The notes below the pieces were generated by a model. The model was not told the DNA's origin, searched no databases, and worked only from the letters and a program-made list of their open reading frames with translations. A DNA stretch of 64,000 nt from Tetracentron sinense. Taxonomy: Eukaryota; Streptophyta; Magnoliopsida; Trochodendrales; Trochodendraceae. The stretch is from NCBI GenBank assembly GCA_015143295.1, contig CM026564.1:12140416-12204415 (forward strand), in the 5' to 3' direction. Below, piece after piece: positions 1 through 61,796 of this stretch. Position 1 is the first letter of the stretch. Each line of letters opens with the position of its first letter. A program made the position numbers and the translations under genes.

Positions 1-1721
1 GACTTACATTTGGGGGTTTTGGCTTACCATAAACCTAAAAAGAGTCTTGAGAGCTTAAGAGAGGGGGAGGATCTCGAAGAGAGGGTTTTTCATCTTTGAG
101 GAGAGATTAAGCAAGTGGGTGACCTAGATCACTCCCAAAGGCTTGGATTCTTCAACTCCAAGGCAAGGTTTGTGAGAAACGCCTCCTCCAAGCTCGGTAG
201 TGCCTCCACCCACATTTTGGAGGGTTTCCCTCATCCTTTTGAAGGTCGGTACCTTTTGCTGCCCTCCTAGTCATGGTTTCCTCTTTTCCTTCCTTATTTT
301 TTGTTCTCCCTAAACCATAACTATGCTATGAGTTGGAATGCATGAATGGAGATGGATGTTGGGTGAAGGATGCCATGTATATGAGATGTGATGAATGAAA
401 TTGGAAGGGTATTGTACCAATAATAAACCCACATGTATGTTGTGAATATAAACCCACCTAGAAAAGCAAGGTGTAGGCTTTAACAAATAATATACACACC
501 ACATGTTTGATGAAATGCCAAGGTGAAGAAAATGAGTTGTAAATCAAGAAATGCATGCTTAAAAGCATATGGAATTGTTAGGGTTTATGATAGTGTGATT
601 AATTACTTTCTCTAAATGGCATGAATATTTACTTGTTTAAATTAATGATATTCTATGTATTGTTGAAATTCCAAATGTCATATTTAATTCCAAGTGAAAG
701 TATGTACACAATTCCACGAGCACGGCATGCATGACATGGCTTACTGGGGCTTTTTTTTTCTAGAATATGGATGTTAGAGGTAGGACATATCTTACGATAT
801 GTTTTACCTCGTTTTTGACAAGGACAAGAACAAGCATTGCACATGACGGAGTTTGCACTTCCCTCCCATCTCATTGAAAGAGGGGTCTCCCCTCACTCAC
901 AAGTGCATCTCATTCAAAGAAAGGTGTCCCTTCCCTCCCAAGTGCATGTCATTGAAAGAAGGGTCTCCCTTCCCTCTCAAGTGCATCTGACAAGTGCATC
1001 TTACAAGTGCATCTCACAAGTTACATGAGCATGTTTAAATTCTAAGCAAGCACGCATGGCATGACACGCTCAATAAGATCAAGCAATACAGACATGAAAA
1101 GTTTTCATGCACGAAAAGGATATTTTTAAGTCAAGTCAAGTGCATGATGATTTTAGGAGATTTATCAACTTTTATATGATGCAAGCATGAATATAAATTG
1201 TTTTACTCTTCTGTTATTATATAAATTGCTTCCTGCTGCACATATCTTTATAGTTATGCTATGACTATTGGTTAGCACTTGGTACACGCCGAGTATTCCA
1301 TGCTCAGCCATACGTTTATGTCGGCAGGTACTGAGGGAGTTGCCGCTCCTTTCGACATCTGTGCTCCTGGGCCATGGGTGGAGGAGGTGTACGTTGAGGA
1401 ACCTATGGAGGAACCTCATGCATACGAGTACTACTAGGTGGTAGATTCTAAGTGATTGTGGGTGAGCGTGAGAGATTGTGTTCATGTATTTTGGCGGGCC
1501 TATCTGCACCTTCTTTTGTGATATCATTTTGTACAAACTTGGATCATATATATACTTAGAGGTTTGGTTAATCTTCTGCTGTGCCATTTTAGTTATGTTT
1601 CTGCTATTATTGTCCTCTATTGTATATGCTCCAGGTATTTTGTAGGTTGGTTTGTCAAGCAAGTCATGATAAGTCGTCCAAGATTCACTCTAACTCCTAG
1701 GGTGGGTTTTGGGTTGCGATA
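1..1721 (+). repeat. 5' LTR of A1 (partial)
   Basis: The 3' part of a family A LTR. It ends in the family-typical block aactcctagggtgggtttt followed by a degraded terminus (gcgata instead of gcgaca). Inside are the hairpin minisatellite (about 886-1010), a palindrome remnant near 785, the hairpin at 1288-1308 and the micro-ORF 1318-1437. The LTR start lies before the window. Confidence 0.88.
1318..1437 (+). CDS. LTR micro-ORF, 39 codons
   Basis: Small ORF inside the LTR, starting 9 nt after a short hairpin (1288-1308). It reads MSAG, then APFDICAPGPWVEE, then a tail ending EYEYY and TAG. The same start (atg tcg gca ggt), the PFDxC...PWVEE core and the stop recur in every family A LTR of the window and, with many silent changes, in families C, D and F. 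No known family is recognised. The peptide is acidic and too short for a signal peptide or membrane segment. If the genomic RNA starts upstream of it, it would be an upstream ORF in the gag leader. It could instead be a conserved RNA element; the protein-level conservation argues for coding. Confidence 0.55.
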   Translation: MSAGTEGVAAPFDICAPGPWVEEVYVEEPMEEPHAYEYY

Positions 1722-1920: not shown

Positions 1921-2462
1921 TGTCACGCCCCAAAATACCCCCTAGGAGTTTAGGGATACTTTAGGCGTGACTATACGTACTTGCCAAACCATCCTGTCAT
2001 GAACATGATAATTACAGTACTAAAACAATGATAATCAGAGCGCGGAAGCTAAACATAAATGCATAAGCGTAAACTAACTTTTCATTTCTTCTATAGTTCT
2101 CAAAATGGTATTCCAAGTGATCATAATTATACAAACATGCCTAGGACTAAGGTGGACAGGCCCACTTATTAAAATGTCAAACTACATAAAACCCTCTCGT
2201 ACTCTCCCCTCAACAGTAGTCGAGGTACGGCCACACGTCGAGATCTCGGTCCGCCTGAGACTGCAGTGGGATAGACGGCTCTCTCTCCTCTATGTACTCT
2301 TCCTTGACCCAAGGCTCTGGGTCGAGGGCTCTCTCGGTACCTGCCGACATGAGAGTACGACTGAGCATGGAATACTCAGCGAGTACAAGCTACTAGCTAA
2401 CCATAACAATTAATAAAACACCACAACAGTAATACAATACAGAGCAGTAAGAAGAACATCAC
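1921..2462 (-). repeat. Family F LTR fragment in the A1 leader
   Basis: The left edge begins tgtcacgccccaaaatac, the reverse complement of the LTR end seen at 62,072. The fragment then runs backward through the second hairpin (near 2140-2180), the micro-ORF (2210-2350) and the first hairpin (near 2365). About 540 bases are present. The right edge near 2462 rejoins A1 leader sequence shared with A2 and A3, so only the 3' part of an LTR is here. No matching target duplication is seen at the right edge, which suggests truncation after insertion. Confidence 0.75.
2210..2350 (-). CDS. LTR micro-ORF, 46 codons (family F type)
   Basis: Minus-strand ORF in the F-type LTR fragment. It starts MSAGTERALDPEPWVKEEY and ends with an RDLDVWPYLDYC tail before TGA. 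It is nearly the same peptide as the one at 61656-61796, sixty kilobases away, and shares only the MSAG start and the PW(V)xEEY core with family A peptides. The extra C-terminal block rich in D, W and Y is typical of F and C types. Function unknown. Confidence 0.55.
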   Translation of the reverse strand: MSAGTERALDPEPWVKEEYIEEREPSIPLQSQADRDLDVWPYLDYC

Positions 2463-9044: not shown

Positions 9045-9164
9045 ATGTCGGCAGGTACTGAGGGAGCTACTGCTCCATTCGATGTCTGTGCTCCGAGCCC
9101 TTGGGTGGAGGAGGAGTACGTCGAGGAGCCTGTGGAGAAACCTCCGATAGAGGGCTACTATTAG
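9045..9164 (+). CDS. LTR micro-ORF, 39 codons
   Basis: Reads MSAGTEGATAPFDVC, then APSPWVEEEYVEE, ending EGYY and TAG. It starts 10 nt after the hairpin in the same LTR. Compared with the copy at 1318, most differences fall outside the PFDxC and PWVEE core. Function unknown. Confidence 0.55.
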   Translation: MSAGTEGATAPFDVCAPSPWVEEEYVEEPVEKPPIEGYY

Positions 9165-10159: not shown

Positions 10160-10279
10160 CTAATAGTAGTCCTCTACCGGAGGTTCCTCCACAGGGTCCT
10201 CAACGTACTCCTCCTCCACCCAAGGGCTCGGAGCACAGACATCAAATGGAGCAGCCGCTCCGCTATCACCTGCCGATAT
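10160..10279 (-). pseudogene. LTR micro-ORF relic, start codon lost
   Basis: The same frame as intact copies is open for 39 codons: SAG, GAAAPFDVCAPSPWVEEEY, ending EDYY and TAG. The start is ATA instead of ATG (a G-to-A change). The core and stop are intact. Confidence 0.5.
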
Positions 10280-17300: not shown

Positions 17301-18761
17301 TCGACCACCACTGCAGCTAAATACCCAGTACACCCCTTATCTAGAAGGTGACATGCTTTAATTGCTGATATTAGCTTGGGTGCTTGACCTCGGATAATCC
17401 CCTGCATTTCGAACTCTAGGATGTCTGGAATTCGAAATATGACTTTCTTGGCATTACAATCTACCACTGCATGGTAATTAGCCAACCAATCCATCCCTAG
17501 GATAACATCATAATCCTTCATGTCTAACACGATCAGATCTACTAACATCCGTACACTATTGACAAGTATAGGACACCTATCATAGACTATTTTTATGCAC
17601 AGAACTTTCCCTGATGGTGTAGATATAGACATCATGCTTTTAAGTGTATTAGGCTTGTAACTTATGTGTTTAGCAAAACGAGTAGAGACAAACGAATGTG
17701 TAGCACCAATGTCAATCAAAGCATAAGCAGGTACTTGAAATACTAAAAGTTTACCTTCAATGACACCTTCGGTCTGCTGTGCCTCTTCCTGGGTAATTGC
17801 AAACACTCTTCCTTTTTCGCCTTCCAACACTAGTGGTTGGGCCTTAGGGCAATCCTTCTTGAAGTGTCCAGGCTTTCCGCACTGGAAGCAAACCTTCGCT
17901 CTACAGTCCTTGGTCAAATGGCCCTGACCACATTTCTCGCACTTAAGCCCCAATTTTCCTGTAGACCCTTGGCTTTTCATGTCCTCGAACTTTCTTTTCC
18001 CAGTAAACTGCCGGTTATTCTCCTTTATCCAGGGCTTCCCAACTGTCCCTTTGCCTTTGCCAGCACTAGACTGTGCCAGTTCTTCATGCACTCGCTCTAC
18101 TCTGAGTGCTCTATCTAATATCTCTGAGAAGGAGGTAAATCGTTGAGATGCCAATTTCCCTCTGATAGTTGGCTTCATTCCTTCTTCAAATTTCTCAACC
18201 CTCCACTGCTCATCCTCGACAAATCTCGCAGCGAACCTCGAGAGTTGATTCATCTTTTGTTCATACTCGCTAACCGACATATTTCCTTGGGTCAGCTGAA
18301 GAAACTCCATCTCCTTCCTCTTTTCTATTGACGCTGAAAAATAGCGCTCATAAAACAATTCAGTAAATTTTGCCCAAGTCACAGGCCTCTGATGCGGTGG
18401 AACTGTCCTTTCCGCTGTGGTCCACCAATGTTCCACTTCTCCTTCAAGTAGAAAGATAGAGAACTCGGGGCTTGTCATTTTCTGGCAAAGACATAGCCCT
18501 AAAAACTTTTTCCAGACTTCTAATCCATTTCTCCGCCTTCACCGGATCAGTAGTACCCGAAAAGGCCGACGGTCCAAGCCTCTTAAACTTCTCCAATCGG
18601 GTCACATTCCCATGCTCTGGCATGGTAGCAATGGGGATACGACTACCATTCCCATTTCCATTCATATTCTGGGCCTGTTGTTGCTGAATTAGGTTGGCTA
18701 GGGCTGTAATAGCCTTGAATGCTCCAGCCAAGGTATTCTCGGGTGCTCATCGAGGTGGCAT
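14384..18761 (-). pseudogene. gag-pol: gag-pol polyprotein of B1, one long frame with breaks
   Basis: Single gag-pol frame without an intron. The likely start ATG at 18759-18761 (MPPR) is followed by TGA at 18747-18749 (CGA-type change), then the gag N-terminus, then a frameshift near 18470. From 18478 the frame is open for 1117 codons: gag core, two zinc knuckles ([13 protein letters not shown] with CX2CX3HX4[15 protein letters not shown]), protease with DIG instead of DSG/DTG, RT (FIDDILVYS), RNase H ([19 protein letters not shown]), integrase zinc region (CLICQQ) and core ([20 protein letters not shown]). TAG at 15125-15127 follows YHPQTDG. The remaining integrase and chromodomain-like tail (EEATWE) continue to 14384 with a frameshift near 14565 and further stops. 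The D-I-G protease residue would probably inactivate it. Confidence 0.93.
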
Positions 18762-22983: not shown

Positions 22984-23204
22984 TGTAGAGCCCCGAACTT
23001 TTGACATTTATGCATGACACTTTCGTAGCCATTTTTCCTTTGAAGTAGTGCAATTCATAAATAAGGAAGAAATTGGAAATTCCGAAACATTAGAAATGTT
23101 CCTTTTCGAAGTACGAACCCAACTCAAGTTGAATCGTCGAAATCCGACGAGCGAGTCAAAAGTTATGACCGAAACAAGGAGGAAAAATATGGAATTTTGC
23201 TGCA

Positions 23205-23400
23205 AGTTACGACCGATCGTACACACCCTACGAACGATTGTAGGTGAGTTACGATCGATCGTAGAGGTTACGAACGATCGTAGAATCTCAGGAATTGACA
23301 AAAGTTTCGGGTCGATATACGATCGATCGAGGATAATTTACGATGGATCGTATTACAACTTACGATCGATCGTAGACAAGTTACGATCGATCGTAGATCG
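23205..23400 (+). repeat. Palindrome cassette type 2 (tacgatcgatcgta)
   Basis: About eight spaced copies of the 14-bp palindrome tacgatcgatcgta and one-base variants. It occupies the same LTR slot as cassette type 1 but uses TA-flanked instead of CC/GG-flanked cores. The same array is at 30300-30480 in the 3' LTR. Confidence 0.82.
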
Positions 23401-24798
23401 CTAATCCAGAAATTTTAATCGGATTTTTAGGGTTTCTTCACTACCTATAAAGGTTGCCCGAGCCTTTAGGGCTGTCATTCACACACCTAGAGTATTTTTG
23501 AGAGTTAGAGAGAAAGGAGAAGGGGATCCTAACCTAGGGTTTGTTCTTGAAGGAGAAATCAAGGGTTTGCTACCCTAGATCACCCCAAGCTTCGGTCAAG
23601 CTCGGGAGGACCACGTTCTCCAAGCTTGGTAGCATCTCACGCACGTTTTTGCAAAGGTTTTCTTCCCTATTCGGGTCGGTACTCTTTGCTACCCTCCTAG
23701 TCATAGCTTCTCTTTTCCTTTATTTCTTCTTGTTTTCCTTCACTTATATATGTGTTATGAGATTGGTGGTATGAATGGTGAATGGAGGTGGATGTTGGCG
23801 AATGGATGCCGTGTGGATGATGTGATGAATGAATGGGAAAGGGTATTATACTAATAATGAACATACAAGTGTGATGTGAGCATAACCCACCTAGAAAAGC
23901 ATGATCTAGGTTTAAGTGAATAATCAACACACCCTATGTTTGATGAAATGCCAAGGTGAACAAAATAAATGATAAATTAAGGAAACCCATGCTTAAGTAC
24001 TCTTGAAATTTGTTAGGGTTCATGATAGTGTGTTTCTTACATTTCTTAAAATGTGTAGATTATTACTCACTTAAATTGTTACATGTTATGCTTTGTGAAT
24101 TACCCCAAATTGCCATATTTAATTCCAAATGCAAGTATGCACACGATTTCACGAGCACGAATGCAGGGCATGTTTTATCGGCGTTTTCAAGAACACGGTT
24201 TAGAGGTGGGGCATATCGTACGATATGTTTTACCTCGCTTTTGGCAAGGACAAGACAATCATGCATTTTCATAAGAAGGGTCTCCCTTCCCTCGCAAGTG
24301 CATACATAACATAAGAAGGGTCTCCCTTCCCTCGCAAGTGCATCTCACAAGGACATCTCACAAGTGGATCTAACAAGTGGAAGGACAAGCATGAGCATTC
24401 TAGGAAGAAGGGTCTCCCTTCCCTCACAAGTAGTTTACTCTTCCGAGTAGGCATGATATGACATAGCATGACAAGCATGAGCATTCTAGGAAGAAGGGTC
24501 TCCCTTCCCTCACAAGTAGATTACCTTTCAGAACAAGCAAGCATGATACAAGCATGACATGGCATGACACGCATGATATGACAAGATAAGACAAACATGA
24601 CAAGTTTTCAAGCACGGAAATGGTATTTCCAGTCAAGTCAAGTGCACAGGGTTTTCAAGGGTTTTATCGGCTTTTCTGAATGCAAGCATGATTACGAACT
24701 GCTTTACTTCCTTCTATGATATGAACTGTTCTATTATATACATATATATGTGTGCATTGCTATCTCATGCTATGACTATTGGTTAGTATTTAGTACCC

Positions 24799-24819
24799 GC
24801 TGAGTATTCCATGCTCAGC
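24799..24819 (+). other. Hairpin 1 before the LTR micro-ORF
   Basis: Arms GCTGAG and CTCAGC around a 9-nt loop (tattccatg), 10 nt before the ATG of the micro-ORF. The block from the hairpin through atgtcggcaggt is the best-conserved stretch of these LTRs and is also found near 1288, 9014, 31796, 41135, 55360, 60184 and 61627, and on the minus strand near 2365, 10290, 35600, 45390 and 53195. Confidence 0.65.
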
Positions 24820-24829
24820 CGTACTTCTT

Positions 24830-24958
24830 ATGTCGGCAGGTTCTGAGGGAGCTGCTGCTCCATTTGATGTTTGTGCTCCTGGTCCATGGGTGGAGGAGGA
24901 GTACGTCGAGGAGCCTTTGGAGGAACCTCCCTTGAGGGTTATTAGTAGGTGGTGTTAG
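24830..24958 (+). CDS. LTR micro-ORF, 42 codons, altered end
   Basis: MSAGSEGAAAPFDVC and APGPWVEEEYVEEPLEE as in the other family A copies. A small indel near 24931 shifts the frame, so the usual GY-stop ending is replaced by a short unrelated tail (RVISRWC). Confidence 0.5.
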   Translation: MSAGSEGAAAPFDVCAPGPWVEEEYVEEPLEEPPLRVISRWC

Positions 24959-25012
24959 ATTCTGAGTGGATTAGCTGTGGGTGAGCATGAGTGATTATAT
25001 CCATGTATTTTG

Positions 25013-25026
25013 GCGGGCATGTCCGC
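25013..25026 (+). other. Hairpin 2 after the LTR micro-ORF
   Basis: Stem GCGG/CCGC around a GCATGT loop, about 55 nt after the micro-ORF stop. The same position in families F and C has stems AGGTGG/CCACCT (60407-60424, 61834-61851) and AGTGA/TCACT (32827-32842) around the same or a near-identical loop, so paired bases have changed together. Confidence 0.6.
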
Positions 25027-25253
25027 ATTTTCTTTGTTTTGTTTTCTCTTGTATTAAACTTGGACCATGTGTATATACTTAGAGGTTGTTAGACTTCCGC
25101 TGTGTCTTATAGTTATGCTTCCGCTGTTATCCTCTATTGTATATGCCCTGTGGGTGTTTTGCAGGTGGTCTGTCAAGCAAGTCATGTAAGTCATGATTTA
25201 GTCGTCCAAGATTCACTCTAACTCCTAGGGTGGGTTTTGGGTCACGACAGAAG

Positions 25254-25265
25254 TGGTATCAGAGC
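25254..25265 (+). other. Primer binding site of A2
   Basis: Exact TGGTATCAGAGC, 4 nt after the 5' LTR. Confidence 0.92.
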
Positions 25266-25610
25266 TTAGGCTTTAGGTCATTAGGGTCACTTAGAATCTA
25301 ATACCACGGCTTGACAAGAGCATATGTTGGGAAACGAGTTAGGAAGGAAGTGAGTCGGGAGCGAGTCTGCTTCCAAGTGTAAGACTAAACTCTAGTCTTA
25401 GTCTAAAATGGTTGCTTTAACCAAGTACGGGTCCTAGGTACGCTAGAACTCTAAAGTATAAGTATAATGTGATGAATACTCTGATGATTTGATGTGAGGT
25501 GTATTAGTATTATACAACTAATACAAATTAAATTATTGTGAAATGGCATTGAAATAAACTGTGCATTCAAGTTAGACTCATGTGGTGTTATTATTCTTAG
25601 GACTTTAGTC

Positions 25611-26859
25611 ATGAGACGGAACACACGGGGTCGTGGGCCATATACCAGAGCTTCCTCTTCTTCACGGGATGAGGATGAGCAGCCGGACCTCTCTCAGGTC
25701 TTAGGCTCTATTGCTGAGACACTCGCCATCCTGGCGGCTCGGCAAACTATACCGGCATCAGCGGTACCTACTCCACCGCCCGGAGCTCCAGTACATCGTA
25801 CAGCTGGAGTTGAGGCATTCCGGAGATTGAGGCCTCCATCCTTCCACGGGAGTGTGGACCCTCTTACTGCGGAGGCTTGGATCCTCCAGGTTGAGAAGAT
25901 ATTTGCGGTGCTCTCTCCTACAGAGGAAGAGAAAGTGGCATGGGCAGTTTTTATGCTAGAGGGTGAAGCCCACCATTAGTGGTTGTCCGCATTGAGGGCA
26001 CGGGACTTGACCATGCAAAGTCAACCGTGGACTTGGGAGGAGTTTAAGGACACGTTCTATAAGAAGTATTTTCCGGTTGGAGCTCGGGAAAAGAAAGAGA
26101 GAGAATTCATCAACCTTGAGCAAGGTTCGATGTCGGTGGCCGCTTATGAGGCCAAGTTCTCGGAGCTATCACGCTTCGCGACACATATGATTGCAACCGA
26201 GGCAATGAAGGCGAGGAGGTTTGACCAAGGGCTCAAGGATGTCATCATGGAGAAAGTGTCGGTCTTCAGGCACGCCACTTACGCTGAAGTAGTGGATAAA
26301 GCCTTGTTGGTTGAGACCAATTTAGAGACCGTGTCCAAGTAGAGAGAATTGGCGAGAGGCCAATCTAGTGGTTCGGTACCTTTAGAGAGGCGAGCCCGGA
26401 CTGGTCCTTATCAGTATACATGGCCAGCACCACAGATGAGGCCAACTTATGCACCTCCAGCACCCCAGCAGTACGTGCCACAGGCACCTCGACCTCAGGC
26501 TCTTCTGGCCCCACCGCCAGTTACCCCTCAGGCAGCGAGGTATACACCACCTTCGGTCCCTCCGGCCTACACATATGAGGTCTGCACTTCATGCGGCAAA
26601 AGGCATCCGGCAGGAGATTGCCGAAGAGCATCTGGTGGATGTTATCATTGCGGTCGCCAGGGCCACATGATCAGGGATTGCCCTAGCCGACATTTACCAG
26701 GCCAGTCTCAGGGTAGTAGGCCCCCAGCACGCCCAGCAGGATCATACCAGGCGTCATCTCAGACTACCCGGTCTACACCTCAGTCTCGCCAGGCAAACCA
26801 GGGGTGAGTTTTTGCCTTGACAGAGGGTGATGCACTTGCATCTGATGATGTGGTGCAAG
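25611..26859 (+). pseudogene. gag: gag of A2, with three stops
   Basis: Capsid/nucleocapsid precursor in one frame. The start MRRNTRGRG is shared with the A3 start. Gag core WTWEEFKDTFYKKYFP, then a proline-rich linker, then zinc knuckle CYHCGRQGHMIRDC (CX2CX4HX4C). Stops: TAG at 25977-25979 (A1 and A3 have TGG), TAG at 26340-26342 (AAG in A1 and A3), TGA at 26805-26807 (CGA in A1). The frame then runs to the splice-like site after 26859. It is followed directly by the intron and pol. Confidence 0.9.
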
Positions 26860-27005
26860 GTACGTAGTTAGAATTAATTTCTTTATTCGTGATTATTATG
26901 TTATGCTCTATTCTCTGTGTACGTACTTGGCATGTTCTATATGTATATATACCTACATGTATACGTTGTTGATGCATGGATTAACTCCGCTAGTTAAAAT
27001 TTCAG
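26860..27005 (+). other. Putative gag-pol intron of A2 (146 nt)
   Basis: Bounded by caag|gtacg and tttcag|gaac. It interrupts the same glycine codon (phase 1) as in A1. Exon ends are conserved while the interior diverges from A1. Confidence 0.75.
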
Positions 27006-29978: not shown

Positions 29979-30066
29979 ATTTTGTATAGGTTTTGTATAT
30001 GTAGCTTGTAATATTGTTTGATTCTGTAATGCATGTCTCGTCCAAATTTTGAGGACGAAATTTTTG

Positions 30067-30080
30067 TAAGGGGGGGAGGA
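30067..30080 (+). other. Polypurine tract of A2
   Basis: Run of G followed by aggA immediately before the 3' LTR at 30081. Confidence 0.85.
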
Positions 30081-32242
30081 TGTAGAGCCCCGAACTTTTG
30101 ACATTTATGCATGACACTTTCATAGCCATTTTTCCTTTGAAGTAGTGCAATTAATAAATAAGGAAGAAATTGGAAATTCCGAAACGTCAGAAATGTTCAT
30201 TTTTGAAGTACGAACCCAACTCAAGTTGAATCGTCGAAATCCGACGAGCGAGTCAAAAGTTATGGCCGAAACAAGGAGGAAAAATATGGAATTTTGCTGC
30301 AAGTTACGATCGATCGTACACACCCTACAAACGATCATAGGTGAGTTACGATCGATCGTAGAATCTCAGGAATTGACAAAAGTTTCGGGTCGATATACGA
30401 TCGATCGTGGATAATTTACGATGGATCGTAGTACAACTTACGATCGATCGTAGACAAGTTACGATCTATCGTAGATCGCTAATCCAGAAATTTTAATCGG
30501 ATTTTGAGGGTTTCTTCACTACCTATAAAGGTTGCCCGAGCCTTTAGGGCTGTCATTCACACACCTAGAGTATTTTTGAGAGTTAGAGAGAAAGGAGAAG
30601 GGGATCCTAACCTAGGGTTTGTTCTTGAAGGAGAAATCAAGGGTTTGCTACCCTAGATCACCCCAAGCTTCGGTCAAGCTCGGGAGGACCACGTTCTCCA
30701 AGCTCGGTAGCATCTTACGCACATTTTTGCAAAGGTTTTCTTCCCTATTCGGGTCGGTACTCTTTGCTACCCTCCTAGTCATAGCTTCTCTTTTCCTTTA
30801 TTTCTTCTTTTTTTCCTTCACTTATATATGTGTTATGAGATTGGTGGTATGAATGGTGAATGGAGGTGGATGTTGGCGAATGGATGCCGTGTGGATGATG
30901 TGATGAATGAATGGGAAAGGGCATTATACTAATAATGAACATACAAGTGTGATGTGAGCATAACCCACCTAGAAAAGCATGATCTAGGTTTAAGTGAATA
31001 ATCAACACACCCTATGTTTGATGAAATGCCAAGGTGAACAAAATAAATGATAAATTAAGGGAACCCATGCTTAAGTACTCTTGAAATTTGTTAGGGTTCA
31101 TGATAGTGTGTTTCTTACATTTCTTAAAATGTGTAGATTATTACTCACTTAAATTGTTACATGTTATGCTTTGTGAATTACCCCAAATTGCCATATTTAA
31201 TTCCAAATGCAAGTATGCACACGATTTCACGAGCACGAATGCAGGGCATGTTTTATTGGCGATTTCAAGAACACGGTTTAGAGGTGGGGCATATCGTACG
31301 ATATGTTTTACCTCGCTTTTGGCAAGGACAAGACAATCATGCATTTTCATAAGAAGGGTCTCCCTTCCCTCGCAAGTGCATACATAACATAAGAAGGGTC
31401 TCCCTTCCCTCGCAAGTGCATCTCACAAGGACATCTCACAAGTGGATCTAACAAGTGGAAGGACAAGCATGAGCATTCTAGGAAGAAGGGTCTCCCTTCC
31501 CTCACAAGTAGATTACCTTTCAGAACAAGCAAGCATGATACAAGCATGACATGGCATGACACGCATGATATGACAAGATAAGACAAACATGACAAGTTTT
31601 CAAGCACGGAAATGGTATTTCCAGTCAAGTCAAGTGCACAAGGTCTTCAAGGGTTTTATCGGCTTTTCTGAATGCAAGCATGATTACAAACTGCTTTACT
31701 TCCTTGTATGATATGAACTGTTCTATTATATATATATATATGTGTGCATTTCTATCTCATGCTATGACTATTGGTTAGTATTTAGTACCCGCTGAGTATT
31801 CCATGCTTAGCCGTACTTCTTATGTCGGCAGGTTTTGAGGGAGCTGCTGCTCCATTTGATGTTTGTGCTCCTGGTCCATGGGTGGAGGAGGAGTACGTCG
31901 AGGAGCCTTTGGAGGAACCTCCCGTTAAGGGTTATTAGTAGGTGGTGTTAGATTCTGAGTGGATTAGCTGTGGGTGAGCATGAGTGATTATATCCATGTA
32001 TTTTGGCGGGCATGTCCGCATTTTCTTTGTTTTGTTTTCTCTTGTATTAAACTTGGACCATGTGTATATACTTAGAGGTTGTTAGACTTCCGCTGTGTCT
32101 TATAGTTATGCTTCCGCTGTTATCCTCTATTGTATATGCCCTGTGGGTGTTTTGCAGGTGGTCTGTCAAGCAAGTCATGTAAGTCATGATTTAGTCGTCC
32201 AAGATTCACTCTAACTCCTAGGGTGGGTTTTGGGTCGCGACA
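30081..32242 (+). repeat. 3' LTR of A2 (2162 bp)
   Basis: Near copy of 22984-25249. Length differences come from one fewer cassette unit (30300-30480) and one fewer minisatellite unit (31350-31515). Perfect palindrome CATATCGTACGATATG at 31290-31305. Ends gggtcgcgaca. Confidence 0.94.
31822..31938 (+). CDS. LTR micro-ORF, 38 codons
   Basis: MSAGFEGAAAPFDVC, APGPWVEEEYVEEPLEE, ending VKGY and TAG. It keeps the normal end that the 5' LTR copy of the same element has lost. Confidence 0.55.
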   Translation: MSAGFEGAAAPFDVCAPGPWVEEEYVEEPLEEPPVKGY

Positions 32243-32247
32243 GGTTT

Positions 32248-33011
32248 ATCATGCTCATAAAGATTTCAACATCTAAGATCTAATAATTTCTCATAAGGAT
32301 CAATGCTCATAAGGATCTCATAAGTCTAAGATCGTTTTCACAAGCTCATATGGATCTCAAACCTTATAAGTACTCATAAGTCTCATACATTCTCTATGCT
32401 CAAAAGGTTCTCACATGTTCATATGACTCATAAGAACTCATAAGACAAACTCATAAGCAATAGATTCTCGCAAGACTTCATAAGATTTTGTTTTCATACG
32501 AATGCTCATATGGTAAATGTTCTCAAAAGTATGCACCTTTGATTTATGCTCTACTCTCTACGATTTCGATAAACGGTTCGCATGCTACTGTTTTATGACA
32601 TTGTTGGCTAGTGGTTGGTACCTGCTAAATGTTTCAATACTCAGCCGTACATTTTGATATCGGCAGGTCCATTAGACATATACATTCCAGTTCCATGGGT
32701 TGAAGAGGAGTATGTTAAGGAGCTAGTAGGCGGCTATCCCGAGGAAGGGAAGGACTTAGACAAATGGTCTTACGAGGCGTACTATTGAGTGACTAAGAGT
32801 GAGTGATAAGTATGTAAATTTTGATTAGTGAGCATGTTCACTCTTTACTTTTGTTATGTTGTACAAACTCTTGGAATACATCACAGGTTAAGTTTTTAGT
32901 TTTACGCTTCCGCTATGAATTGCCTTGTGTATTGGACAAGATGGTTTGTTATGATATCTTAGTCACACAGAAGGTCACTCCTAACTCCTAGGGGAGATTT
33001 GGGGTGCAACA
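32248..33011 (+). repeat. Family C LTR, right piece
   Basis: LTR tail ending aactcctaggggagatttggggtgcaaca at 33011 (core aactcctaggg shared with families A, D and F). It contains a run of degenerate ctcataaggatc units (32290-32500) in the slot where family A has the GAAGGG minisatellite, a micro-ORF relic (32657-32788) and hairpin 2 (32827-32842). No tRNA-iMet site follows, so it is probably a solo or truncated LTR. Confidence 0.7.
32657..32788 (+). pseudogene. LTR micro-ORF relic, family C type
   Basis: The frame begins ATA (not ATG) TCG GCA GGT, then PLDIYIPVPWVEEEY, then a longer tail with KDLDKWSYEAYY and TGA. The ending resembles family F peptides (RDLDxW) while the core matches family A. 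43 sense codons. Confidence 0.5.
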
Positions 33012-33737: not shown

Positions 33738-35175
33738 TGTCGCGACCCACAATACCCCCTAGGAGTTAGGGATACATTGACTCGTGACCGTCGTATCATA
33801 CCTCCAGTATAATACATAAGGCACACGTGGAGACCTGTCAAAAACACAAACATATCTAGCGGAACCGATAAAGAATGCACAGCGGAATAAAATACTAAGC
33901 ATAGCGGAAGCAAAACGATACTCCTATAACTCAGTTCAAGTATGAACCAACAAACGTATATACATGTGAGAAACCCAAAAGTGGAGTGGACAAACCCCAC
34001 ACTCACATAACAAAATAACATCTTAAAGTTCTAAGTCTGCTGATAAACAAAAGTCGAAGTCTCGACACCTATCTATAGGACCATCGTCTTGATAAAGTCG
34101 AAGTACTCTTCCTCTACCCATGGTTCCGTACCACATATGTCGAACGGAGCCCAAGCACCTGCTGATGATAACAAATATCGGCTGAGCGTGGAATACTTAG
34201 CGTATACAAACTAATAACAATAAAGCAATATAGCATAGAGCATACAAAGCATGGAGATTGAAATCCTTAAAGCATATCAAAGCGTAGAAATCATGTATAG
34301 CATATGTGAAGAAATCCGAAATCTGAAACCAAAACCATATCCGTGTGAGTCATGCGATAATCATAGCCTTGTGAGTTCTTGTGAGTTCATGGAGTTACTT
34401 AGAGTCATTATGATCCGTAGAGGCATAGAGATACCATACAGCACATAGAGCATATCCTTAGAGATCTTAGAGCGTTACATTTATGATCCGTAGAGCTTGT
34501 GAGACGATCTTAGAGCTTATCTTAGAGTTCCTTGTGAGCATAGTATGATCCGTAGAGCTTGTGAAACAGTCTTAGACAAATCATGGAGTTACTTAGAATC
34601 GTTCCTTATTAGTCATTTTAGTGAAAAACACCTTTTTGTACTTTGAGAAATCCATGGAAAACATCGATTCAAGCGAGACATGCGAGCACATGAACATATG
34701 AGGGTAATAAGCATATTTAAGCATCAAAATCCCTTAGAGGTATTTCATCAAACACTTAGAGTGCATCGAAATAGTAGCTTACATCCAACAGAATATAACA
34801 TCTTTTCACACCATAGCAAATCGAGATATACATATAGCATAGAGTGAGGAGAATCATATTTAACAACTAGTAGGATTGCAAGATTGGTAGTAGAGTGTAT
34901 CTACCTTGGTAAAATGAACGTCTTTGATTCCCACAAGCTGGAACAAGCAAGAACCGTGAGTTCTTGGTTGAGAATCACCAAAAGAAATGGAAGAACTTGA
35001 TCTTCCACAAGCTTGAACAATCACCAAGCTCCTCTCCTTCTTCTCTCTCTCAAAATCTCTTAAAAATATGCAGTAAGGGTTTCTGAAACCCTAAGACACG
35101 AACCCAGCCTTTATATAGGCAAAGGGTAGTGGCTAAAGTCTTAAACACCCTTAGTGAAAAAATCGGCGTATAACC
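33738..35175 (-). repeat. Family D LTR, distal piece
   Basis: Left edge tgtcgcgacccacaatac. Contains a micro-ORF relic (34073-34168) and a degenerate array of agagcttgtgagac / gatccgtagag units (34370-34600), a third kind of array in the minisatellite slot. It is cut at the A3 target site taacc (35171-35175). Confidence 0.78.
34073..34168 (-). pseudogene. LTR micro-ORF relic, family D type
   Basis: Frame SSAG, then APFDICGTEPWVEEEY, then a short tail and TAG. The start position has TCA instead of ATG. Core residues PFDIC and PWVEEEY are intact although the flanking DNA differs from family A. Confidence 0.5.
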
Positions 35176-37527
35176 TGTCGCTACCCAAAACCCACCCTAG
35201 GAGTTAGAGTGAACTTTGGACGACTAATCATGACTTGCTTGACAAACCAACCTGCAAAACCCACAGAGCATATACAATAGAGGACAAAAACAGCGGAAAC
35301 ATACTCTAACATGGTATAGTGGAAGTCTACCAAACCTCTATGTATATACATACGTAAATCCAAGTTTATACAAAAAGGGAACCAAAAGAAAGTACGGACA
35401 TGCCTGCCAAAATACATGGATATGTCTCTCTCAACTCACCCACAGCTATATCACTCAGAATCTAAAACCACCTAATGGTAACCCTCTACTGGAGGTTCCT
35501 CCAAAGGTTCCTCGACGTACTCCTCCTCCACCCAAGGGCTCGGAGCACAGACATCAAAAGGAGCAGCTGCTCCGCCATCACCTAACGACATAAGAAGTAC
35601 GGCTGAGCATGGAATACTCAGCGGGTACCAAGCACTAACCAACAGTCATAGCATACGGATAGCATACATGAAGCAGGAAACAATTCACGCATATAAAGCA
35701 GGAATGATTCATATCATGACAATAAAGTAAAGCAATATAATTCATCATATTTGCATTCATAAAAGCCATTAAAACCCTTGAAATCTTGAGCACTTGACTT
35801 GACTGAAATTACCCTTTTTATGCTTGAAACCTTGTCTACCATGTCATGTGTGTCATGCTTATATCATGCGTGTCATGTCATGCCATGCGAGTATCATGCT
35901 TGCTTGTTCTGAAAAGTAATCTACTTGTGAGGGAAGGGAGACCCTTCTTCCTAGAATGCTCATACTTGTCATGCTATGTCATGTCATGCTTACTCGGAAA
36001 AGTAAACTACTTGTGAGGGAAGGGAGACCCTTCTTCCTAGAATGCTCATACTTGTCATGCTATGTCATGTCATGCTTACTCGGAAAAGTAAACTACTTGT
36101 TAGGGAAGGGAGACCCTTCTTCCTAGAATGCTCATGCTTGTCCTTCCACTTGTGAGATTCACTTGTGAGATGTCCTTGTGAGATGCACTTGCGAGGGAAG
36201 GGAGACCCTTCTTATGAAAATGCATGATTGTCTTATCCTTGCCAAAAGTGAGGTAAAACATATCGTAGGATATGTCGCACCTCTAAATCTCATTCCTGAA
36301 AACCTCGATAAATCATGTCATGTATACGTGCTCGTGAGGTCGTGTGCATACTTGCGTTTGGAATTAAATATGGCATTTGAGTAATTCATAACACATAACA
36401 TCAATGATTTGAGCAATTTAATATTCATATCATTTAGGGAAAGCAAACAATCACACTATCATGACCCTAGCAATTTCCATAAACCTTAAACATGCATTTT
36501 CTTAATTTATTATTCATTTTATTCACCTTGGCATTTCATCAAACATGGTGCATTCATTATTTATTAACCCTACAAAATGCTTTTCTAGGTGGGTTTTACT
36601 CACATCACATATGTATGTTCATTATGGGTACAATGCCCTCCCCGTTCATCCATCACATCAATACACACGGCATCCAATCGCCCACATTCATCTCCATTCA
36701 CCATTCACCATTCACCATTCACAACCCATCTCATAATACATGGATGTATAGAGGAACGCAGAAAATAAAGGAAAATAAGAACTATAACTAGGAGGGTAGC
36801 AAGAAGTACCGACCTTGAAGAAATGAGGAAGAAAAATCCTCCAAGAACGTTCGTGAGGCGCTGCCCTAGCTTGGAGAAACTCCTCCTCGCGTGCTTGAAT
36901 CAAAATCTTGAAGTAATCCAAGCTTGAGGTGATTGTGGGTCTTGAAAACCCCTTTGATTTCTCCCCAAAAGTAAACCCTAGGTTAGAAATTGCCCTCTCC
37001 TCTTTCTCTAACTCTCAATGTCTCTAAGAGTGGTAAATGAGCCCTAAAAGGCTCAGGCATCCCTTAAGAATAAAGAGTGAAACGCCAAAAGACCGAAACA
37101 CCCTTACTGAAATTTCTGCAAAAACACGAAGACCGAGCGATCGGTGGTTATGACCGATCGATCGGTTGCCTACCGAGCGATCAGTGTGTTGACTGAGCTC
37201 TCGACCAAAAATTAACTCTCTGGAAAATTTCCCCATACAAAAATCTTGACCGGTTGATAGCTACCGATCGATCGGTTTTGGACCGATCGATCACTCCATG
37301 GACCGAGCGATCGGTTGCCTACAGGTCCAAACTGTTTTGGCCATATCTTTTGACTCGCTCGTCGGATTTCGACGATTCAACTTGCTTTGGATTCGTACTT
37401 TGAAAAGGTACATTTCTGATGTTTTGGAATTTCTAATTTCTTCCTTATTTATTAATTGTAATACTTTAACGGCAAATTGGCTACGAAAGTGCCATGTATT
37501 AAGCATGAAAAAGTCTGGGGCTCTACA
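35176..37527 (-). repeat. 3' LTR of A3 (2352 bp)
   Basis: Edges tgtcgctacc and ctctaca. Type 1 palindrome cassette (37125-37320), GAAGGG hairpin minisatellite with four units (35925-36215), near-palindrome (about 36255), micro-ORF (35472-35591). Confidence 0.93.
35472..35591 (-). CDS. LTR micro-ORF, 39 codons
   Basis: MSLGDGGAAAPFDVC, APSPWVEEEYVEEPLEE, ending EGYH and TAG. The third codon is TTA (Leu) where other copies have GCA (Ala). Confidence 0.52.
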   Translation of the reverse strand: MSLGDGGAAAPFDVCAPSPWVEEEYVEEPLEEPPVEGYH

Positions 37528-39299: not shown

Positions 39300-41585
39300 T
39301 GTAGAGCCCCGGACCTTTTCACATTTAATGCATGACACTTTCGTTGCCATTTTTCCTTTAAAGAGGAATAATTAATAAATAAGGAAGAAATTGGAAATTT
39401 TGAAAGGTCAGAAATGTTCGTTTTCGAAGTACGAACCCAACGCAAGTTGAATCGTCAAAATCGGACGAACGAGTCAAAAGATATGGCCAAAACAGTCTGG
39501 ACCTGCAGGCAACCGATCGCTCGGTCCATAGAGCGATCGATCGGTCCAAAACTGATCGATCGGTAGCTATCGACTGGTCAAGATTTTTGTATGGGAAAAT
39601 TTTCCAGAGAGTTGATTTTTGGTCGAGAGCTTGGTCAACACACCGATCTATCGGTAGGCAACCGATCGATCGGTCATGAACACCGATCGCTCGGTACTCG
39701 CGTTTTTGCAGAAATTTCAGTAAGGGTATTATGGTCTTTATGTCGGTTTACTCTTACCTTAAGAGTTTAACCCGAGCCTTTAGGGCTCATTCTCAACACT
39801 TAGAAGATTTGGGAGATTAGAAGAGAGGAGAAAGGGTTTCCTAAGCTAGGGTTTTGCTTTTGGAGAAGAATCAAAAGGGTTTTGAGACCCTAGATCAACC
39901 CCAGGCCCGTTTTCTTCAAGATCAAGGCTCAAGCATTCGAGGAGCTCGTGATCCAAGCTAGGGCAGCCGCTACACGGTCGTTTTTGGAAGGGGTTTCTTC
40001 CTCATTGTTCAAGGTCGGTACTTCTTACTACCCTCCTAGTTATAGCTTCCCTTTTTCCTTTGTTTCTCCTTGTTTTCCTTCACTTATATATGTGTTATGA
40101 GATTGGTGGTATGAATGGTGAATGGAGATGGATGTTGGCGAATGGATGCCGTGTGGATGATGTTGGCGAATGGGAAAGGGCATTGTACCAATAATGAACA
40201 TACAAGTGTGATGTGAGCGTAACCCACCTAGAAAAGCATGATCTAGGTTTAAGTGAATAATGAACACACCCCATGTTTGATGAAATGCCAAGGTGAACAA
40301 AATAAATGATAAATTAAGGGAACCCATGCTTAATTGCTCTTGAAATTTGTTAGGGTTCATGATAGTGTGTTTCTTACATTTCTTAAAATGCGTAGATTAT
40401 TACTCACTTAAATTGTTATATGCTATGCTTTGTGAATTACCCCAAATTGCCATATTTAATCCCAAATGCAAGTATGCACACGATCTCACGAGCACGCATG
40501 AAATGACGTGATTTACCGATGTTTTAAGTATGGGACGTAGAGGTGGGGCATATCGTAAGATATGTTTCACTTCGCTTTTGACAAGGGCAAGACAATCACG
40601 CATTTCATAGGGAAAGGTCTCCCATCCCCTCGCATGACATGCATAGTATCGCATGACACGCATAGCATAGCATGGCATGACACGCATAGCATAGCATCAC
40701 ATGACACGCATAACTCTGCATGGCATGACACGCATGGATGCTAGTTGCAACGGGCTATGAACGGCAACTAGGCATACCCATCTGCATATAGGGTACTAGT
40801 TGCGACGGACTATGAACGGCAACTAGGCATGTGAACATGTTTAAATTATGGACAAGCAAGCATGATACTCGCATGACATGACATGGCACGCATGATGCAA
40901 GCATGACAAGCATGGCACGGTTAACAAGTTCCCAATCACGCAAAGGGTATTTCAAGTCAAGTCAAGTGCACGATGTTTTCAAGGGTTTTTATCAGTCTTT
41001 CTGAACGCAAGCATGAATATAAATTGCTTTACTTCCTTGGATGATATAAATTGTTCTTGTTCTATATATGCAACTTGCTTCCTACTTTATGTATGCTATC
41101 TGTATACTATGACTGTTGGTTAGTATTTAGTACCCGCTGAGTATTCCATGCTCAGCCGTACTTCTTATGTCGGCAGGTTCTGAGGGAGCTGCTGCTCCAT
41201 TTGATGTTTGTGCTCCTGGTCCATGGGTGGAGGAGGAGTACATCGAGGAGCCTTTTGAGGAACCTCCCATAGAGGGTTATCAGTAGGTGGTGTTAGATTC
41301 TGAGTGGATTAGCTGTGGGTGAGCATGAGTGATTATATCCATGTATTTTGGCGGGCATGTCCGCACTTTCTTTGTTTCGATTTCTTTGTATTAAACTTGG
41401 ACCATGTGTATATACTTAGAGGTTGTTAGACTTCCGCTGTATTTTATAGTTATATTTCCGCTGTCATCCTCTATTGTATATGCTCTGTGGGTTTTTGCAG
41501 GTTGGTTTGTTAAGCAAGTCATGTAAGCCATGTTTAGTCATCCAAAGTTCACTCTAACTCCTAGGGTGGGTTTTGGGTCGCGACA
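39300..41585 (+). mobile_element. S2: family A solo LTR inside A3 pol
   Basis: Plus-strand LTR (tgtagagcccc to gggtcgcgaca, 2286 bp) with target duplication AGATA at 39295-39299 and 41586-41590, inserted in RNase H. Carries the type 1 cassette (39505-39700). In the minisatellite slot it has only one GAAGGG unit and instead a gcatgacacgcatagc array (40634-40740) plus a duplicated inverted repeat CTAGTTGC/GCAACTAG (40741-40771 and 40796-40826). Confidence 0.95.
41167..41286 (+). CDS. LTR micro-ORF, 39 codons
   Basis: MSAGSEGAAAPFDVC, APGPWVEEEYIEE, ending EGYQ and TAG, 10 nt after hairpin 1. Confidence 0.55.
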   Translation: MSAGSEGAAAPFDVCAPGPWVEEEYIEEPFEEPPIEGYQ

Positions 41586-44972: not shown

Positions 44973-47193
44973 TGTCGCGACCCAAAACCCACCCTAGGAG
45001 TTAGAGTGAACTTTGGACGACTAATCATGACTTGCTTGACAAACCAACCTGCAAAACACACAGAGCATATACAATAGAGGACAAAAACAGCGGAAACATA
45101 CTCTAACATGGTATAGCGGAAGTCTACCAAACCTCTATGTATATACATACGTAAATCCAAGTTTATACAAAAAGGGAACCAAAAGAAAGTACGGACATGC
45201 CCGCCAAAATACATGGATATGTCTCTCTCAACTCACCCATAGCTATATTACTCAGAATCTACAACCACCTAATGGTAACCCTCTACTGGAGGTTCCTCGA
45301 CGTACTCCTCCTCCACCCAAGGGCTCGGAGAACAGACATCGAAAGGAGCAGCTGCTCCGCCATCACCTGCCGACATAAGAAGTACGGCTGAGCATGGAAT
45401 ACTCAGCGGGTACCAAGCACTAACCAACAGTCATAGCATACGGATAGCATACATGAAGCAGGAAACAATTCACGCATATAAAGCAAGAATGATTCATATC
45501 ATGACAATAAAGTAAAGCAATATAATTCATCATGTTTGCATTCATAAAAGTCGGTAAAACCCTTGAAATCTTGTGCACTTGACTTGACTGAAATTACCCT
45601 TTTTATGCTTGAAACCTTGTCTACCATGTCATGCGTGTCATGCTTGTATCATTCGTGTCATGTCATGCCATGCGTGTATCATGCTTGCTTGTTCTGAAAA
45701 GTAATCTACTTGTGAGGGAAGGGAGACCCTTCTTCCTAGAATGCTCATACTTGTCATGTTATGTCATGTCATGCTTACTCGGAAAAGTAAACTACTTGTG
45801 AGGGAAGGGAGACCCTTCTTCCTAGAATGCTCATGCTTGTCCTTCCACTTGTGAGATTCACTTGTGAGATGTCCTTGTGAGATGCACTTGCGAGGGAAGG
45901 GAGACCCTTCTTATGAAAATGCATGATTGTCTTGTCCTTGCCAAAAGTGAGGTAAAACATATCGTAGGATATGCCCCACCTCTAAATCCCATTCTTGAAA
46001 ACCTCGGTAAATCATGTCATGTATACGTGCTCGTGAGGTCGTGTGCATACTTGTATTTGGAATTAAATATGGCATTTGAGTAATTCATAACACATAACAT
46101 CAATGATTTGAGCAATTTAATATTCATATCATTTAGGGAAAGCAAACAATCACACTATCATGACCCTAGCAATTTCCATAAACCTTAAACATGCATTTTC
46201 TTAATTTATTATTCATTTTATTCACCTTGGCATTTCATCAAACATGGTGCATTCATTATTTATTAACCCTACAACATGCTTTTCTAGGTGGGTTTTACTC
46301 ACATCACATATGTATGTTCATTATGGGTACAATGTCCTCCCCGTTCATCCATCACATCAATACACACGGCATCCAATCGCCCACATTCATCTCCATTCAC
46401 CATTCACCATTCACAACCCATCTCATAATACATGGATGTATAAAGGAACACAAAGAAAATAAAGGAAAAGAAGAACTATAACTAGGAGGGTAGCAAGAAG
46501 TACCGACCTTGAAGAAATGAGGAAGAAAACTCCTCCAAGAACGTTCGTGAGGCGCTACCCTAGCTTGGAGAAACTCCTCCTCGCGTGCTTGAATCAAAAT
46601 CTTGAAGTAATCCAAGCTTGAGGTGATTGTGGGTCTTGAAAACCCCTTTGATTTCTCCCCAAAAGTAAACCCTAGGTTAGAAATTTCCCTCTCCTCTTTC
46701 TCTAACTCTCAATGTCTCTAAGTGTGGTAAATGAGCCCTAAAAGGCTCAGGCATCCCTTAAGAATAAAGAGTGAAACGCCAAAAGACCGAAACACCCTTA
46801 CTGAAATTTCTGCAAAAACACAAAGACCGAGCGATCGGTGGTTATGACCGATCGATCGGTTGTCTACCGAGCGATCAGTGTGTTGACCGAGCTCTCGACC
46901 AAAAATTAACTCTCTGGAAAATTTCCCCATACAAAAATCTTGACCGGTCGATAGCTACCGATCGATCGGTTTTGGACCGATCGATCGCTCCATGGACCGA
47001 GCGATCGGTTGCCTGCAGGTCCAAACTGTTTTGGCCATATCTTTTGACTCGCTCGTCGGATTTCGACGATTCAACTTGCGTTAGGTTTGTACTTCGAAAA
47101 GGAATATTTCTGATGTGTCGGAATTTCTAATTTCTTCCTTATTTATTAATTGTAATACTTTAACGGCAAATTGGCTACGAAAGTGCCATGTAT
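44973..47193 (-). repeat. 5' LTR of A3, outer edge missing
   Basis: Very similar to 35176-37527 but with one fewer minisatellite unit (45710-45915). Matches the 3' LTR up to gccatgtat and then stops. Type 1 cassette at about 46820-47010. Confidence 0.92.
45269..45376 (-). CDS. LTR micro-ORF, 35 codons
   Basis: MSAGDGGAAAPFDVC, SPSPWVEEEYVEE, ending EGYH and TAG. An in-frame 12-base deletion relative to the partner LTR removes one PLEE-type unit but keeps frame and stop. Confidence 0.55.
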   Translation of the reverse strand: MSAGDGGAAAPFDVCSPSPWVEEEYVEEPPVEGYH

Positions 47194-53058: not shown

Positions 53059-53178
53059 CTACTGATAACCCTCTACAGGAGGTTCCTCCAAAGGCTCCTC
53101 GACGTACTCCTCTTTCACCCATGGACCAGGAGCACAAACATCAAATGGAGCAGCAGCTCCCTCAGAACCTGCCGACAT
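53059..53178 (-). CDS. LTR micro-ORF, 39 codons
   Basis: MSAGSEGAAAPFDVC, APGPWVKEEYVEE, ending EGYQ and TAG. One core residue differs (K for the first E). Confidence 0.55.
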   Translation of the reverse strand: MSAGSEGAAAPFDVCAPGPWVKEEYVEEPLEEPPVEGYQ

Positions 53179-55388: not shown

Positions 55389-55505
55389 ATGTCGGCAGGT
55401 TCTGAGGGAGCTGCTGCTCCATTTGATGTTTGTGCTCCTGGTCCATGGGTGGAAGAGGAGTACGTTGAGGAGCTTTTGGAGGAACCTCCCGTAGAGGGTT
55501 ATTAG
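55389..55505 (+). CDS. LTR micro-ORF, 38 codons
   Basis: MSAGSEGAAAPFDVC, APGPWVEEEYVEELLEE, ending EGY and TAG. Followed by hairpin 2 with a G-T wobble in the stem (near 55570). Confidence 0.55.
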   Translation: MSAGSEGAAAPFDVCAPGPWVEEEYVEELLEEPPVEGY

Positions 55506-60210: not shown

Positions 60211-60366
60211 ATGTCGGCAGGTGCGCGAGCCCCTCTTGACATATGTGATCAGGGTCCTTGGATAGAGGAGGACTACGGGGAGGAAGAACCGTATGAGGAT
60301 CTAGTAGTCGAGCCTCAGGCGGAGGCGAGAGACTTAGACCATTGGCCCCACGGGGGTGACTATTGA
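60211..60366 (+). CDS. LTR micro-ORF, 51 codons (family F, copy 1)
   Basis: Starts MSAGARAPLDICDQGPWIEE, then an acidic tail, then RDLDHWPHGGDY and TGA. Only the MSAG start, the PLDxC and PW(V/I)EE core and the RDLDxWP end are shared with other types, and most shared codons use different third bases. It starts 9 nt after hairpin 1. Confidence 0.58.
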   Translation: MSAGARAPLDICDQGPWIEEDYGEEEPYEDLVVEPQAEARDLDHWPHGGDY

Positions 60367-61655: not shown

Positions 61656-61796
61656 ATGTCGGCAGGTTCCGTGGGTGTCCTCGACCCTGAGCCTTGGGTC
61701 GAGGAAGAGTACATAGAGGAGAGGGAGCCACCTATCCCGCTGCAGTCTCAGGAGGGTAGGGATTTGGATGTATGGCCATACCTCGACTACTGTTGA
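61656..61796 (+). CDS. LTR micro-ORF, 46 codons (family F, copy 2)
   Basis: Starts MSAGSVGVLDPEPWVEEEY, ends RDLDVWPYLDYC and TGA. It is close to the minus-strand copy at 2210-2350. It differs strongly from the copy at 60211 in the same LTR, so the duplication is old or brought together two lineages. Confidence 0.58.
   Translation: MSAGSVGVLDPEPWVEEEYIEEREPPIPLQSQEGRDLDVWPYLDYC

Follow-up and report, generated by a model that had tools for sequence, protein, structure and literature searches.

The long terminal repeats (LTRs) of a set of plant Ty3/gypsy elements in the genome of Tetracentron sinense appear to hold a genuine micropeptide gene, 35-51 codons long in the 64,000-nt stretch of contig CM026564.1 analyzed here (hereafter, the window). 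As judged from comparison of the copies, this micro-ORF evolves under purifying selection on its amino acids in family A, in the F-type copies and across families, and it is almost certainly translated and selected. LTRs are regarded as control regions; here, they also contain a selected coding block, and one of the window copies resides in a solo LTR.

A micro-ORF within the LTRs

Six-frame reading of the window recovered the frame described in the original prediction at all 15 positions given there. Twelve of these frames open with ATG-TCG. Family A contributes the copies at 1318..1437 (+; a divergent subfamily), 9045..9164 (+), 24830..24958 (+), 31822..31938 (+), 41167..41286 (+), 55389..55505 (+), 35472..35591 (-), 45269..45376 (-; with an in-frame 12-nt deletion) and 53059..53178 (-); family D, a 51-codon copy with the tail RDLDHWPHGGDY (60211..60366, +); and family C, the copies at 61656..61796 (+; tail RDLDVWPYLDYC) and 2210..2350 (-). 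Three copies lack the ATG: one of family A (10160..10279, -; ATA), one of family F (32657..32788, +; ATA) and one at 34073..34168 (-; TCA) that is the nearest window relative of lineage E (see below). At the start place of the family F copy, an in-frame ATG is present in 13 of 19 related genome copies chosen by protein similarity.

Several details of the initial description require adjustment. The frame length had been given as about 31-51 codons, whereas the ATG-bearing frames span 35-51. The MSAG start holds generally, except that the copy at 35472..35591 begins with MSLG, and the common place of the stop does not extend to the copy at 24830, in which a 1-nt deletion relative to its siblings shifts the tail out of the normal frame (C-terminus LRVISRWC), so that the usual stop is passed. 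The count of four families is too low, given at least three further groups in the genome and the lineage to which the copy at 34168 belongs as a relic. Family B had been said to lack the micro-ORF; indeed, no such frame is found in one of the two family B LTRs among stop-to-stop segments of at least 25 residues in the three sense frames. Family B also has a long open gag-pol frame (15125-18478, -; 1117 codons) that ends inside the integrase core.

In the protein alignment of the 15 copies, the invariant residues are S2, G4, the P and W of PW, the second E after V, and Y. A second motif close to the stop, (R/K)DLDxW, is common to the C, D and F copies, and the distance from PWVEEEY to the stop varies from 10 to 29 residues among the ATG copies of the window. 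For families A, C, D and F, the window copies whose tail is unshifted have an aromatic residue as the last or second-last before the stop, as do most of the further groups. The peptide is acidic, with 10 acidic and 0 basic residues among the 39 of one genome copy (L039) counted manually.

Self-comparison, LTR ends and the leader place the family A frame within LTRs of approximately 2.2-2.3 kb and, as originally proposed, upstream of gag. The copy at 24830 lies in the 5' LTR (22984..25249, +; ends TGTAGAGCCCC...CACGACA) of an element spanning 22984-32243, and the copy at 31822 in its partner LTR, which starts at 30081. Just after the 5' LTR, at 25254, is TGGTATCAGAGC, which we take to be a tRNA-Met-type primer-binding site. 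The domain order on the plus strand is that of Ty3/gypsy elements: a gag-like frame from 25611, protease (26903-27514), RT-RNaseH (27475-28839) and an integrase zinc domain (29113-30021). The host elements presumably belong to the Tekay/Del lineage. No chromodomain was seen in the integrase region 29113-30021; a Chromo match (PF00385; E=1.8e-4, 21.8 bits, below the curated cut-off of 25.1) lies at the end of the frame 37629-39350 (-), which stands between the LTRs bearing the micro-ORFs at 35591 and 45376. The copy at 41167 is located in the solo LTR (39300-41585), which is flanked by a 5-bp target duplication, AGATA.

Hairpin and start block

Immediately upstream of the micro-ORF start is a hairpin, GTACCCGCTGAGTATTCCATGCTCAGCCGTAC (24793..24824, +), the 19-nt core of which has 14 window matches at up to 3 mismatches vs 0.06 expected. 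Among 21 distinct strings, full pairing is seen in 10 and a single mispair in 9; of the remaining two, one has two mispairs and the other is a chance match. The stem thus seems to be mostly kept, a weak indication because the search expression itself required a stem-like string. In family A, an out-of-frame AUG within the hairpin (24811 in the copy at 24830) precedes the micro-ORF start. By reading, the start codon stands in a weak context, with T or C at -3 and T at +4.

The start block ATGTCGGCAGGT (24830..24841, +) is shared without change, even at third positions, by 11 of the 12 window copies with an ATG, unlike the codons that follow it, so that this block is probably constrained at the nucleotide level as well. 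Within it, GCAGGT is nearly invariant among copies.

Several smaller features were noticed around the frame. A second small inverted repeat lies 3' of it (25013-25026 and equivalents) in the window A, C, D and F copies, with paired changes (GCGGGCATGTCCGC in A, GGTGGGCATGTCCACC in C, AGTGAGCATGTTCACT in F), and is followed by a partly conserved TTGTAT..AACTTGGA that resembles a poly(A) signal. One family B LTR (19900-19960, -) has a hairpin-like CTGACTTTTTGTGTCAG and then CAG at a comparable place, with no micro-ORF; a TATA-like CTATATATAATGG is found near 21690 in the same LTR.

Purifying selection on the encoded peptide

The distribution of substitutions follows codon phase. In family A (10 copies, 35 sites for each codon position), parsimony-informative sites number 5, 3 and 16 at the first, second and third positions, the excess at third positions that had been predicted; counted in the same phase, the flanks give 14/17/14 upstream and 18/23/25 downstream. 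For seven representatives, three of which are A subfamilies, the 18 gap-free codons contain 13/12/30 changes (p=0.001) and the 10-codon core 5/3/14 (p=0.003); all 15 copies together give 17/14/32 (p=0.003). In 18 of the 21 pairs of representatives, residue differences are fewer than when an equal number of base changes is scattered at random (p<0.05), and in 3 pairs they are not. Frame-breaking indels, too, are rarer in the frame than in the flanks, as anticipated: in family A, the frame has 2 indels (12 nt and 1 nt) in 120 alignment columns, compared with 9 in 189 columns upstream, 0 of them multiples of 3, and 31 in 377 columns downstream, 9 of them multiples of 3.

A codon model, with the tree built from the flanks and the frameshifted tail of the copy at 24830 masked, yielded a dN/dS ratio (w) far from 1: 0.128 (p=1.8e-17) for 18 codons of the 15 window copies, which are not independent because 24830/31822 and 35591/45376 look like LTR pairs of single elements. 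The estimates were 0.141 (p=2.3e-12) for the 12 ATG copies, 0.292 (p=4e-7) for the 35-codon family A body (10 copies) and 0.105 (p=1.5e-5) for the 12-codon tail of the four C, D and F copies. In this model, w showed no significant difference between internal and terminal branches.

These data also bear on whether there is a peptide at all. Conservation of the block could serve only a signal in the DNA or RNA, be it a hairpin, a splice element or a promoter element, with the open frame as a by-product, and the hairpin core and the ATGTCGGCAGGT block are indeed conserved at third positions too; however, downstream of the ATGTCGGCAGGT block conservation becomes codon-phased, and codon phase is apparent also between branches of the ATG-less lineage E, which renders such an explanation highly improbable. 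Pure nucleotide conservation was accordingly rejected, on the evidence of codon-phased change and low w in window and genome copies alike.

Copies across the genome

The A-type hairpin pattern has 11,567 and 11,653 matches, 23,220 altogether, at up to 3 mismatches in the 1.16-Gb genome, and the reversed control has 0. The C-type pattern has 3,605 and 3,688 matches at up to 1 mismatch, a set that may overlap the A-type set, and the F-type pattern 91 and 116. We sampled copies by the hairpin, so that they were not chosen by protein: the first 30 listed for A, which all lie on one contig, the first 30 listed for the F-type, and 10 of the 100 listed for C, none of these sets being random. The 18-codon block is present in 69 of the 70 anchored copies at 61% or higher nucleotide identity, the copy without it being L064. 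Among the 30 A copies, 29 retain the ATG and 28 the whole frame, 27 of these with the ATG. Because 69 of the 70 anchored copies have the block and the hairpin has 23,220 matches, coding frames in this one genome may number thousands.

Selection was again evident in the anchored copies, with w=0.16 (p=5e-13, n=30) for A and w=0.24 (p=3e-10, n=17) for the F-type copies outside lineage E. For lineage E by itself, the result is marginal (w=0.37, p=0.043, n=12), and for family C by itself, with 8 hairpin-anchored copies, it is not significant (w=0.44, p=0.19). For these sets, L062 was kept in the F-type set and left out of E, and L064 (no block), L093 and L096 (both divergent) were omitted. The last two, 2 of the 10 C-type hairpin copies, contain a strongly diverged MS(A/T)GT..PW(I/M)E frame with an early end and may represent a further family. 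Across 11 flank windows, those with too many gaps having been left out, the median w was 0.91 beside the A frames and 0.90 beside the F-type frames, with single values from 0.55 to 6.44; the codon model has noise, since 3 of the 11 deviate at p<0.05 (w=0.55, 2.08 and 6.44). Altogether, low w, fastest change at third positions and fewer frame-breaking indels, with which the hairpin-anchored A and F-type copies agree, back the proposal of a translated peptide.

Protein searches of the genome, in which 150 of 27,621 and 150 of 31,801 candidates were scored, produced copies selected by protein that were not used to estimate w. Nine of ten matches examined from the second of these searches have a recognizable core, and they include a further group, for example, MSVGPFDICAPGPWIEEDYGEEGPAEAQPEEDKNLDRWPYPGYY in L104. 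A PWEEEEY group is present among the F-type hairpin copies.

Searched with a profile of the window copies alone, other public sequence yielded one homolog (P0001, E=5.9e-5); three more (P0002-P0004) were found after P0001 was added to the profile, with later E-values that are inflated because these sequences are profile members. P0002 probably comes from another genome, given that the best of 150 scored matches in this one is only 67% identical. Its predicted structure has a mean pLDDT of 67.9 and a pTM of 0.21, and contains neither a helix of 4 residues nor a strand of 3. The searches of viral contigs and genome contigs gave no confirmed relative, Pfam gave 0 families for the 4 of 15 frames scanned, and Rfam at gathering thresholds had no match in the window.

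Organization of the leader

The region upstream of the hairpin in family A has an uneven distribution of AUGs. In 18 of the 30 related A copies, those in which both the upstream anchor and the donor-like motif were recognized, the ATG count is 2 over the 4,330 nt of an AUG-depleted stretch, where dinucleotide shuffles give 19.9 on average (range 10-31), and 1,009 over the 19,630 nt that separate this stretch from the hairpin, where shuffles average 619.5 (range 576-661). In the element at 22984-32243, a candidate AUG-free exon 1 occupies 23478..23674 (+), its start being placed from the TATA element CTATAAAG at 23445, which is absent from most other A copies examined. A donor-like site, ^GTCGGTAC (23675..23682, +; ^ marks the candidate splice point), follows it, approximately 1.1 kb upstream of the micro-ORF, with the ATG-rich stretch in between. 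The motif AAG^GTC(G/A)GTAC was recognized in 21 of the 30 A copies and not found in 9; the matching place in the C copy reads AAG^GTTAGTAC, and 5 of the 6 PWEEEEY-group copies examined have AAG^GTC(G/A)GTACC at a distance of approximately 1.05-1.13 kb upstream of the hairpin.

Two acceptor-like sites are candidates for the downstream ends: GGTTAG^ upstream of the hairpin (24781..24786, +) and TTATTATTCTTAG^ (25588..25613, +), 10 nt before the gag ATG at 25611. At the same distance from the gag ATG, YAG^GACTTTAGTCATG is found in three window family A copies, with a similar site in a fourth element, and it occurs also in unspliced genome copies. Splicing of the leader is thus an inference from these motifs. 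A genome-wide search for three exon-exon junctions detected no spliced copy: the 1, 6 and 6 matches are unspliced variants, as judged by their letters and, for the closest one, by its fetched sequence. This closest match, with 1 mismatch to the exon 1/pre-gag junction, was rejected as an ordinary unspliced leader.

The ATG-rich stretch of family A LTRs (24270-24520 and equivalents) includes GAAGGGTCTCCCTTCC units in varying repeat number, and repeated units like CCAGTCGACTGGATGAAGGCATCCA are found at 62970-63310.

A lineage without the initiator AUG

Lineage E comprises 12 of the 30 F-type hairpin copies, and CTG or TTG replaces the ATG in all 12. The E pattern has 131 genome matches at up to 3 mismatches, a few of which are ATG copies of another group. 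All 18 further E copies read TGA-(C/T)TG-TCG-GCA-GGT, which is no independent test of the CTG, these copies having been chosen by the pattern. Two E branches (20 and 4 copies) have 2/0/12 fixed differences by codon position, with 23/20/35 variable columns; these counts cover 24 of 30 copies, L072 (no anchor) and L112, L120, L121, L123 and L125 (indels) being left out. An internal stop is present in 11 of 29 aligned E copies, as expected of old insertions. Because the fixed differences between the branches are concentrated at third positions, the E peptide seems to have stayed under selection without an AUG. The region upstream is only partly AUG-poor in E.

Initiation at CUG or UUG would be the simplest reading for lineage E, in which the start codon seems to have changed naturally from AUG to CUG. 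The alternative is that the frame is entered by splicing at GCAG^GT and constitutes the terminal part of a longer spliced protein, as the near invariance of GCAGGT and, in the E copies examined, the missing start ATG and the in-frame TGA just upstream might suggest. However, in the A copies with the donor, the exon 1 frame is not conserved, has no Met and runs into stops at varying distances; moreover, the ATG is kept in 29 of the 30 A copies, and the genome contains no copy of an exon 1/GCAG junction. Entry at GCAG^GT from a coding exon 1 was disfavored on the lack of conservation of the family A exon 1 frame, and this alternative, weakened by that evidence as regards family A, appears improbable overall.

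Possible mode of action

In the scheme that we propose, transcription would start within the AUG-depleted stretch, and the leader would be spliced to the acceptor just before the hairpin. In such an mRNA, no other AUG-started frame would precede the micro-ORF, except where the hairpin holds an AUG, in which case the micro-ORF would come second. Were the same exon 1 joined to the acceptor that lies 10 nt before gag, the first AUG would be that of gag. The product, acidic and with no predicted structure, would act in trans as an accessory peptide, and its PWVEEEY and DLDxWPY motifs might bind a putative partner, be it a host protein, Gag or integrase.

The micro-ORF lies upstream of gag, and the copies and groups listed above have an aromatic residue last or second-last before the stop; both features would suit a peptide-dependent uORF acting in cis, translation of which stalls or recycles ribosomes and sets the Gag output of the same RNA, in the manner of conserved-peptide uORFs in plant genes or of pararetroviral leader ORFs. 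However, a fixed stalling geometry would hardly permit PWVEEEY to lie anywhere from 10 to 29 residues before the stop. Furthermore, there are 20 AUGs from 24811 to 25580, including those of the hairpin (24811) and the micro-ORF (24830), and the 18 others that stand before the gag AUG at 25611, 16 of them after the micro-ORF stop, would hinder reinitiation unless the leader is also spliced. Cis control is therefore the less likely option, with some chance of being correct, and, given that the variable spacing of core and stop argues against a stalling peptide, we lean slightly toward a trans-acting accessory peptide that binds through short motifs.

The broader proposal is tentative and, in our estimate, somewhat more likely to fail in part than to hold in full: there might exist a class of LTR-resident micropeptide genes that act in trans. 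Such genes would reside in both LTRs of plant chromoviruses, be expressed from an alternatively spliced leader as its early ORF (with a single exon 1 and separate acceptors for the micropeptide and for gag) and have persisted while the elements split into many families. They probably occur in a second genome as well, and in one lineage initiation would have shifted to a CUG/UUG codon that immediately follows a stop. If so, solo LTRs would be autonomous expression units for the micropeptide. The micro-ORF offers a concrete candidate for a plant retrotransposon accessory factor and a testable idea of how Gag could be produced behind an AUG-rich leader.

Relation to known systems

Within the literature searched, in which few subscription journals are covered, no LTR-located peptide of such a kind was recognized in titles and the beginnings of abstracts, and three peptide strings of the micro-ORF were absent from the searched text. 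LTR-encoded accessory proteins of retroviruses include MMTV Sag and HIV Nef, which are located in U3 and made from the 3' end by splicing; these share with the micro-ORF the position of a protein within the LTR and are longer. Plant genes, for their part, have conserved-peptide uORFs, that is, short frames with conserved amino acids in the 5' leader. The micro-ORF resembles these in amino acid conservation within a short leader frame upstream of the main ORF, but it belongs to a mobile element, and its core-to-stop distance varies.

The accessible part of a paper on LTR structure (PMC3601003) contains none of the terms ORF, open reading frame or peptide and states that no model could be built for plant Metaviridae. 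The additional ORFs (aORFs) of plant LTR retrotransposons, as far as they are described in the accessible text of a review, include env-like genes, Grande gene23, RIRE2 and Retand (Vicient and Casacuberta 2020, PMC7264820). Like these, the micro-ORF is an extra, family-wide ORF besides gag-pol, found, in A and the F-type, in most copies and under selection. However, the aORFs described there occupy the internal region, most of them between pol and the 3' LTR, whereas the micro-ORF is part of both LTRs, with the 5' copy upstream of gag; its locations include the LTR 22984-25249 and the solo LTR 39300-41585.

The leaders of plant pararetroviruses (CaMV, RTBV), in the part of the source available (PMC5902531), place a short ORF and a stem-loop before the first long ORF, and RTBV ORF I starts at AUU. 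The micro-ORF region is similar in its short ORF and stem-loop in a long leader and probably in non-AUG starts, but differs in the order of the two, the micro-ORF being on the 3' side of the hairpin, and in the amino acid conservation of the micro-ORF across families.
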